A stretch of DNA of 64,000 nucleotides from contig NC_023035.1 in the NCBI RefSeq assembly GCF_000507245.1, positions 2,647,570-2,711,569 of the forward strand, in the 5' to 3' direction. Within the stretch, counting starts at the first letter, position 1. Each line of letters starts with the position of its first letter. The DNA comes from Salinispira pacifica (GTDB lineage: Bacteria; Spirochaetota; Spirochaetia; DSM-27196; Salinispiraceae). Below the pieces are notes generated by a model, which saw only the letters and a list, made by a program, of their open reading frames with translations, did no database searches and was not told the origin of the DNA. The position numbers and the translations under genes were made by a program. This document shows positions 43,576 to 44,461 of the stretch, piece after piece.

Positions 43576-43659
43576 GCGGTCGTGGTGGAATTGGTAGACA
43601 CGCTAGCTTGAGGGGCTAGTGGCCGCAAGGCCGTGCTGGTTCAAGTCCAGTCGACCGCA
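43576..43659 (+). tRNA. tRNA-Leu (GAG)
   Basis: Class II tRNA of 84 nt. Acceptor GCGGTCG pairs with CGACCGC; anticodon loop TTGAGGG gives GAG; variable arm GGCCGCAAGGCC; TPsiC arm GGTTCAAGTCC. Its last 18 bases (43642-43659) are repeated exactly at 43870 and 44098 and, degenerate, at 44326. Confidence 0.95.
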
Positions 43660-43704
43660 TCCGGGTCGTACCGCAGGCACTTTGTGCCGAGGAACGATCC
43701 CGTT

Positions 43705-43743
43705 AAAAAGGCTCAGTGACCCATAGGGTTGCTGAGCCTTTTT
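43705..43743 (+). terminator. Terminator in repeat copy 1
   Basis: AAAAAGGCTCAG pairs with CTGAGCCTTTTT, with an inner ACCC/GGGT stem and ATA triloop. A and T runs on the two sides make it bidirectional. Identical in copy 2. Confidence 0.9.
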
Positions 43744-43751
43744 ATTTTAGA

Positions 43752-43880
43752 GACTGGACTTGAAGCCCGACCTCATTCCGCGAATACGTGGAGCGGCGAG
43801 CCCCTTGGATGGGGCGAGTGAGGTCGGGACGGGTCGGAGGCCTGAGGCACGACGCCGAAGGCTGGAGACCAAGTCCAGTC
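43752..43880 (+). ncRNA. Structured multibranch element in each repeat (copy 1 shown)
   Basis: GACTGGACTTG (43752-43762) is exactly complementary to CAAGTCCAGTC (43870-43880), the tRNA-derived start of the next copy. Within this 11-bp closing stem lies CCCGACCTCA (43766-43775)/TGAGGTCGGG (43819-43828), which itself encloses CCGC/GCGG and GCCCC/GGGGC hairpins. The element is downstream of the terminator and would need readthrough or its own promoter. In copy 3 the right arm is degenerate. Whether it is transcribed is unknown. Confidence 0.35.
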
Positions 43881-43932
43881 GACCGCATCCGGGTCGTACC
43901 GCAGGCACTTTGTGCCGAGGAACGATCCCGTT

Positions 43933-43971
43933 AAAAAGGCTCAGTGACCCATAGGGTTGCTGAGCCTTTTT
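43933..43971 (+). terminator. Terminator in repeat copy 2
   Basis: Same 12-bp stem and inner triloop stem as in copy 1, at +228 bp. Confidence 0.9.
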
Positions 43972-44160
43972 ATTTTAGAGACTGGACTTGAAGCCCGAGC
44001 TCATTCCGCGAATACGTGGAGCGGCGAGCCCCTTGGATGGGGCGAGTGAGGTCGGGACGGGTCGGAGGCCTGAGGCACGACGCCGAAGGCTGGAGACCAA
44101 GTCCAGTCGACCGCATCCGGGTCGTACCGCAGGCACTTTGTGCCGAGGAACGATCCCGTT

Positions 44161-44199
44161 AATAAGGCTCAGTGACCCATAGGGTTGCTGAGCCTTTTT
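44161..44199 (+). terminator. Terminator in repeat copy 3
   Basis: Same stem at +456 bp, but the left A run is AATAA, shortening the A/T part of the stem by one mismatch; the T run on the + strand remains. Confidence 0.88.
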
Positions 44200-44461
44200 A
44201 TTTTAGAGACTGGACTTGAAGCCCGACCTCATTCCGCTAATACGTGGAGCGGCGAGCCCCTTGGATGGGGCGAGTGAGGTCGGGACGGGTCGGAGGCCTG
44301 AGGCACGACGCCGAAGGCTGGAGACCACATCCAGTGGAATGCCTTTACTCTCATACCGGCAAAGAGAAAAGGCCCCTGCTGAAAGATTCCTTTTTTCGCC
44401 CCCAGGTTTTCTGTATACTTATGTCCGTCGTCTCATCATTTTGTTGTTCTGAGGATAGAAA

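Follow-up and report, generated by a model that had tools for sequence, protein, structure and literature searches.

A tRNA-Leu(GAG) repeat array of Salinispira pacifica belongs to a spirochaete family of folded units matched to their own tRNAs

In the window (the whole 64-kb stretch of Salinispira pacifica DNA that was analysed), a tRNA-Leu(GAG) gene (43576..43659, + strand; CCA not encoded) hosts a tandem array of three units starting at 43642, 43870 and 44098, i.e. spaced by exactly 228 bp (TRF: period 228, 3.0 copies, 98% matches, 43642-44335). The piece copied at every unit boundary is the 18-nt tRNA 3' end CAAGTCCAGTCGACCGCA, corresponding to tRNA nts 56-73 (43642..43659, +): it is exact at 43642, at 43870 (copy 1, 43870..43887, +) and at 44098 (copy 2, 44098..44115, +), and degenerate, reading CACATCCAGTGGAATGCC, at 44326, where the last copy ends the array (44326..44343, +). 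Each unit contains i) a terminator-like hairpin (43704..43744 in unit 1, with an A-run and a T-run; 43932..43972 in unit 2; 44160..44200 in unit 3; no strand assigned); ii) an inverted piece of the tRNA, hereafter the guide (43752..43764, 43980..43992 and 44208..44220; +), which in unit 1 reads GACTGGACTTGAA, is the reverse complement of tRNA nts 54-66 and in unit 3 still matches the tRNA perfectly; and iii) a predicted structured RNA that begins with the guide (43752..43880, 43980..44108 and 44208..44336; +).

The unit folds into a 129-nt, four-helix structure (-76.4 kcal/mol; z = -6.7 vs shuffles) with a closing stem P1 (GACTGGACTTG/CAAGTCCAGTC), in which the guide pairs with the tRNA 3' copy as the 3' strand, a P2/P3/P4 arm and a P5 arm. 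The match of the inverted piece extends 2 nt further into the T-loop of the real tRNA than into that of the copy. The unit length of 228 bp is made up of a usual unit, for which the spacing is ~180-190 bp, plus a separate dispersed repeat, a mini hairpin of ~41 nt (CGGGTCGTACCGCA-stem-GAGGAACGATCCCG) inserted in the trailer (43662..43702, +), with equivalents at 43890-43930 and 44118-44158 in the later units. An earlier note on this DNA had described the tRNA with its three 228-bp units, the 18-nt boundaries, one strong terminator per unit and a multibranch fold closed by the tRNA piece of the next unit; the tRNA call, TRF, the sequence and the folding energy all agree with that description.

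The DNA of the Leu(GAG) array occurs only once in the 3.78-Mb genome, and yet the array is one of many there, each matched to its own tRNA, which the earlier note had not mentioned. When the tRNA trailers of the genome were searched for stretches of the respective tRNA 3' end in either orientation, the same anatomy was found behind Pro(GGG) (five full units), Asn (five), Met (three), Leu(TAA) and Leu(CAG) (two each) and Pro(CGG) (several units of two alternating types), together with a truncated unit behind Val(TAC). At every such array the inverted piece and the direct copy were those of the array's own tRNA. With a covariance model, 27 units were found in the genome, located behind Leu (GAG, CAG and TAA), Pro (GGG and CGG), Asn, Met and a broken Arg tRNA.

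Beyond this genome, the same anatomy is present in many spirochaete families, together with an RNA-like fold that is conserved, covaries and reads in the same sense as the tRNA. The covariance model R1, built from eight units, matched in 35 of 61 relatives (many of them MAGs) and in 78 of 393 genomes across the phylum, these phylum counts being lower bounds because the filters were strict; units across Spirochaetota number in the hundreds, one of them behind tmRNA. In a GTDB scan limited to loci showing the pattern, the loci with a significant model score were, among the matches listed, all from named spirochaetes (including Breznakiella homolactica), and pattern-bearing loci of other phyla reached no significant score. 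Apart from the tRNA itself, no Rfam 15 family matched the units at gathering or relaxed thresholds; blastn against plasmids and phages gave no meaningful match, and a further model, R2, had no match in six pattern-scan loci from IMG/VR. No report of spirochaete repeats of this type was found in the open-access literature, and the family is apparently both previously unrecognised and mobile. Thus the search of spirochaete genomes and RNA databases proposed in the earlier note returned homologues throughout Spirochaetota and nothing from Rfam, and its scenario of an array absent from close relatives is false for the family as a whole. The family amounts to hundreds of structured RNAs in spirochaete genomes, all without an Rfam counterpart.

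The stems are strongly supported by compensatory change. In an alignment of 102 distinct units, which was fitted to the structure, 95.0% of cells pair vs 67.6% after shuffling, both sides are altered in 28 of 32 pairs, and the covariation score is 0.671 vs 0.170 for shuffled and 0.03-0.07 for slid alignments; in a structure-blind MAFFT alignment, double changes occur in 14 of 19 pairs. The covariance-model check on the stems therefore came out in their favour, and the lack of compensatory changes that the earlier note had considered does not apply to the family. Moreover, of the two strands, the sense strand gives the better fold in 56 of 59 units, so the functional form is likely RNA or the top DNA strand. 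Short unit variants without the P4 or P5 hairpin that keep the guide and the copy were also seen (loci L277, L279 and L297), and these may show a minimal core.

A tRNA or tmRNA gene lies upstream on the same strand for 100 of 115 unique units, most of the remainder being at contig ends or behind broken tRNAs, and first units usually lie 43-69 nt beyond the tRNA end. The host genes are those of Leu, Pro, Met, Asn, Arg, Gly, Ala, Thr, Val and Ser tRNAs and, at locus L246, tmRNA. The guide, 9-12 nt long, is complementary to the T-loop and the T-stem 3' strand of the adjacent tRNA (nts 54-65): across seven sites, 606 of 651 positions are Watson-Crick with the own tRNA, vs a mean of 361 and a maximum of 401 in 2000 permutations. 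By position, the match to the own tRNA is 100% at nt 57, 99% at nt 59, 96% at nt 63 and 86% at nt 64, vs 22-49% for other tRNAs (22% at nt 63), and it fades from nt 66. In 87 of 93 units at least 8 of the 9 guide positions match, while 16 or 17 of the 17 nts of the 3' copy (57-73) are the same as in the tRNA in 71 of 93; where the copy has drifted, the guide nearly always still fits the tRNA. In the tmRNA case (L246 1095-1643, genome G401) the guide GCGGGAGTCGAA likewise matches the tmRNA T-arm. Guide matching is thus tRNA-specific over 18 tRNA species plus tmRNA, and the members of a large RNA family bear the reverse complement of the tRNA in front of them. At one tRNA-Thr(CGT) gene (L302, genome G209) the register of the guide is shifted to about nts 45-57, directly before a constant GAAGCG, which suggests that guide and constant body can be separated.

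Several lines of evidence bear on how the units came to lie behind so many tRNAs: i) Related bodies occur behind different tRNAs of one genome, with clades of Leu(GAG), Pro(GGG) and Pro(CGG) (98/94), Leu(CAG) and Met (100/92), Met and broken Arg (100/100) and, in genome G036, Leu(GAG) and Pro(GGG) (96/88), in body trees that rest on ~100 columns and are therefore poorly resolved; ii) In body-similar pairs on different tRNAs (e.g. L086 on Arg and L244 on Val; L020 on Leu and L107 on Pro), the two guides can differ by 3-5 letters out of 9, and each is complementary to its own tRNA; iii) Copy numbers, which the earlier note had proposed to count in relatives, differ between closely related species, the tRNA-Thr shared by G209 and G213 being followed by one additional unit in G209; iv) Some 30 tRNA-Met sites of one genus carry a unit, an integrase-like gene or nothing; v) The duplicated segment at L272 runs from nt 57 through the terminator, and many arrays end in a 3'-truncated unit. 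None of these loci showed one clean insertion at a site that was otherwise empty, the G213 site already having a truncated unit. Together, the related bodies, the guide changes and the differences in copy number and presence or absence favour spread plus turnover.

On these sequence comparisons, we consider it about evenly poised that the units are mobile elements, short and non-coding, of a spirochaete family ('tRNA-3'-end guide elements') for which the Leu(GAG) array is one locus. Each unit consists of a trailer (often with a terminator), the guide, a conserved folded body of ~100 nt and a tRNA copy from nt 56/57 to the 3' end, with the guide:copy stem P1 closing the folded unit. Such elements would spread from one tRNA gene to another. 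During insertion, the guide, judging from its T-arm match, would pair with the T-arm and so set the end of the body beside nt 56/57, and the insertion would duplicate nts 57-73 (at L272 the terminator too) and leave the tRNA intact. Further insertion, or recombination between repeats, could lengthen the tandem arrays, whose distal units would decay or become truncated. If the guide does direct insertion, this would be a new route for non-coding sequence to find tRNA genes. Alternatively, the need to keep the P1 hairpin intact could be all that maintains the guide match, the copy being kept identical to the tRNA by recombination.

For the mobile-element reading, the mobilising enzyme would act in trans or be a host function, rather than a detectable reverse transcriptase, Y1 transposase or dedicated tyrosine integrase. 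Reverse transcriptase (RVT_1) does not track the units and many carriers have none (many of these genomes being MAGs and incomplete), on which ground RT-driven retrohoming was rejected. Y1 transposase is absent from the S. pacifica genome despite its 27 units and does not track the units elsewhere, and mobilisation of the IS200/IS605 or REP/RAYT kind was rejected accordingly. Furthermore, several carriers (e.g. G014, G017, G021, G024 and G025) have only two tyrosine recombinases, an adjacent pair that we take by its position as XerC/XerD-like, so that a dedicated tyrosine integrase seems not to be required in these carriers; the host Xer pair itself may act on the units. No dedicated integrase tracks the units, but repeated integration of a 228-bp circle, a hypothesis of the earlier note, may still apply. 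The S. pacifica genome itself has 13 reverse-transcriptase matches, about nine of which are nearly identical (465-aa frame; e.g. 255897, 1778245 and 1870061) and are perhaps group II introns; by co-occurrence they are unrelated to the units.

The likeness to the E. coli tyrT locus drawn in the earlier note is right and reaches further than was claimed. The tyrT/tyrV repeats, with the rtT RNA (Rfam RF00391; rttR, tpr), are tandem 178-bp units that restart with the tRNA 3' end, and the copy begins in the T-loop in both systems. In tyrV, we found that an inverted piece of the T-arm, GGGGAAGGAT, follows the tRNA at a distance of 59 nt, with the 3' copy at +159, i.e. 100 nt further, and a repeat every 178 bp; the chance of a 10-nt inverted match in the tyrV trailer space is estimated at p = a few in a thousand. 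The same anatomy is present in spirochaetes, where a T-arm piece in inverted orientation lies ~60 nt beyond the tRNA and pairs with the copy, and by this analogy the spirochaete units may be called rtT-like in layout. When the spirochaete models were run on the E. coli locus with filters off, the rtT units ranked first and aligned end to end in the sense direction, at scores of 6-10 bits that are not significant (10 bits under R2, E about 0.04 in 2.6 kb; E range 0.035-0.43), and in the reverse search the RtT model (RF00391) had no match in the 64-kb window. Homology is therefore not supported by the score, although register, strand and rank are right. The systems also differ in that one tRNA species was examined in E. 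coli vs 18 plus tmRNA in spirochaetes, and in that spirochaete units usually stand behind an intrinsic terminator.

A wider generalisation is rather unlikely in our estimate: a new class of minimal RNA-guided mobile elements, in which ~130-nt non-coding RNAs would home to tRNA and tmRNA genes by a 9-12-nt guide rewritten at every new tRNA, without reverse transcriptase, Y1 transposase or dedicated integrase, and of which E. coli rtT would be a distant or convergent member. With the spirochaete family, what had for decades been an oddity of a single E. coli tRNA locus becomes a general phenomenon that can be tested. Other known systems share traits with the units. Integron cassettes with attC and tRNA-targeting integrative elements are likewise repeated units at a fixed site, with hairpin ends and a restored target end; the spirochaete units differ in their conserved multi-helix body, and several carriers seem to need no dedicated integrase. 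Type V-K CAST homing guides and OMEGA/TnpB RNAs similarly place a short tRNA-matching guide beside a structured RNA, whereas the spirochaete units have in addition a long direct copy of the tRNA end.

Possible, if short of probable, is that the units are host-beneficial small RNAs of the rtT kind. The strong conservation of the structure in the sense orientation is consistent with this, as is a guide that tracks the tRNA where the copy has drifted. Moreover, P4 hairpin loops have GGA in 76 of 89 units, and CsrA is present in S. pacifica and nearly universal in carriers. A precedent exists in the E. coli rrn read-through sRNAs, which lie between dual terminators and are reported to bind CsrA and Hfq in vitro (PMC8144298). 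On the other hand, patchy presence, tandem amplification and hopping would be unusual for a housekeeping RNA, and the first terminator should limit transcription. P5 loops, furthermore, have CGA (48) as often as GGA (40), and CsrA is not expected to bind CGA loops; therefore CsrA binding is a possible property of the units but not a defining one, and a CsrA sponge as sole function was rejected because of this split. The CsrB/RsmB sponge RNAs (RF00018) likewise have GGA in many hairpin loops, but the spirochaete units differ in their defined four-helix fold, tRNA linkage and guide, and half of their P5 loops are without GGA; on the S. pacifica tRNA-Pro array, RF00018 scored 16-17 bits, below its cut-off of 71. 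If the guide does act on tRNA, this would be a new layer of tRNA control.

It is far less probable that the units were left behind by, or arose as by-products at the attachment sites of, tyrosine-integrase elements (prophages, integrative elements) whose attB is a tRNA 3' end. The copies do start in the T-loop, as do many tRNA attB cores, and behind several Treponema-like tRNA-Met genes the corresponding position is occupied by an apparent integrase gene. However, the folded body is conserved independently of integrase elements, and the five carriers named above have only the adjacent Xer-like pair. In the S. pacifica genome, no second, distant tRNA 3' copy lies within 20 kb of the arrays, and on this ground we also rejected the idea that the truncated last unit marks one edge of a large hidden element whose other half lies at a distance.

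More improbable still is a role as decoy attachment sites, with the 3' copies drawing integrating elements off the real tRNA: by eye, the sequence after the L301 unit resembles that beside integrase genes at other tRNA-Met loci, but the conserved body and the guide are left unexplained. Functionless tandem duplication by slippage, the account that would have been left had the refuting conditions of the earlier note applied, is scarcely credible and was rejected as a complete explanation because the homologous body is phylum-wide and strongly covarying and the guides match their tRNAs; the near-identity of the units of one array, and the difference of exactly one unit between G209 and G213, are accounted for by it as array growth only.

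Minor observations concern the surroundings of the units. In Treponema-like genomes (L275, L282, L283, L291, L293 and L298-L300), tRNA-Met is often directly followed by an apparent integrase ORF (MAKPYLIFKAHTG..., by eye); the same tRNA therefore serves integrative elements and units. In S. pacifica, intergenic tandem short repeats of the form 'gcatgggcgagcag-[stem]-cgaccagcccc' (L006 1190-1500, L007 1365-1690 and the Pro(CGG) array in L039) are another structured dispersed repeat of the genome. The mini hairpin with a conserved internal loop (CGUACCGCA - stem - GAGGAACG) looks like a small repeat family of its own, being found in tRNA trailers, inside units and even inside the broken tRNA-Arg (43662-43702, with +228 and +456; ~1500-1545 in both L006 and L007; L029, L030, L100, L117 and L118).
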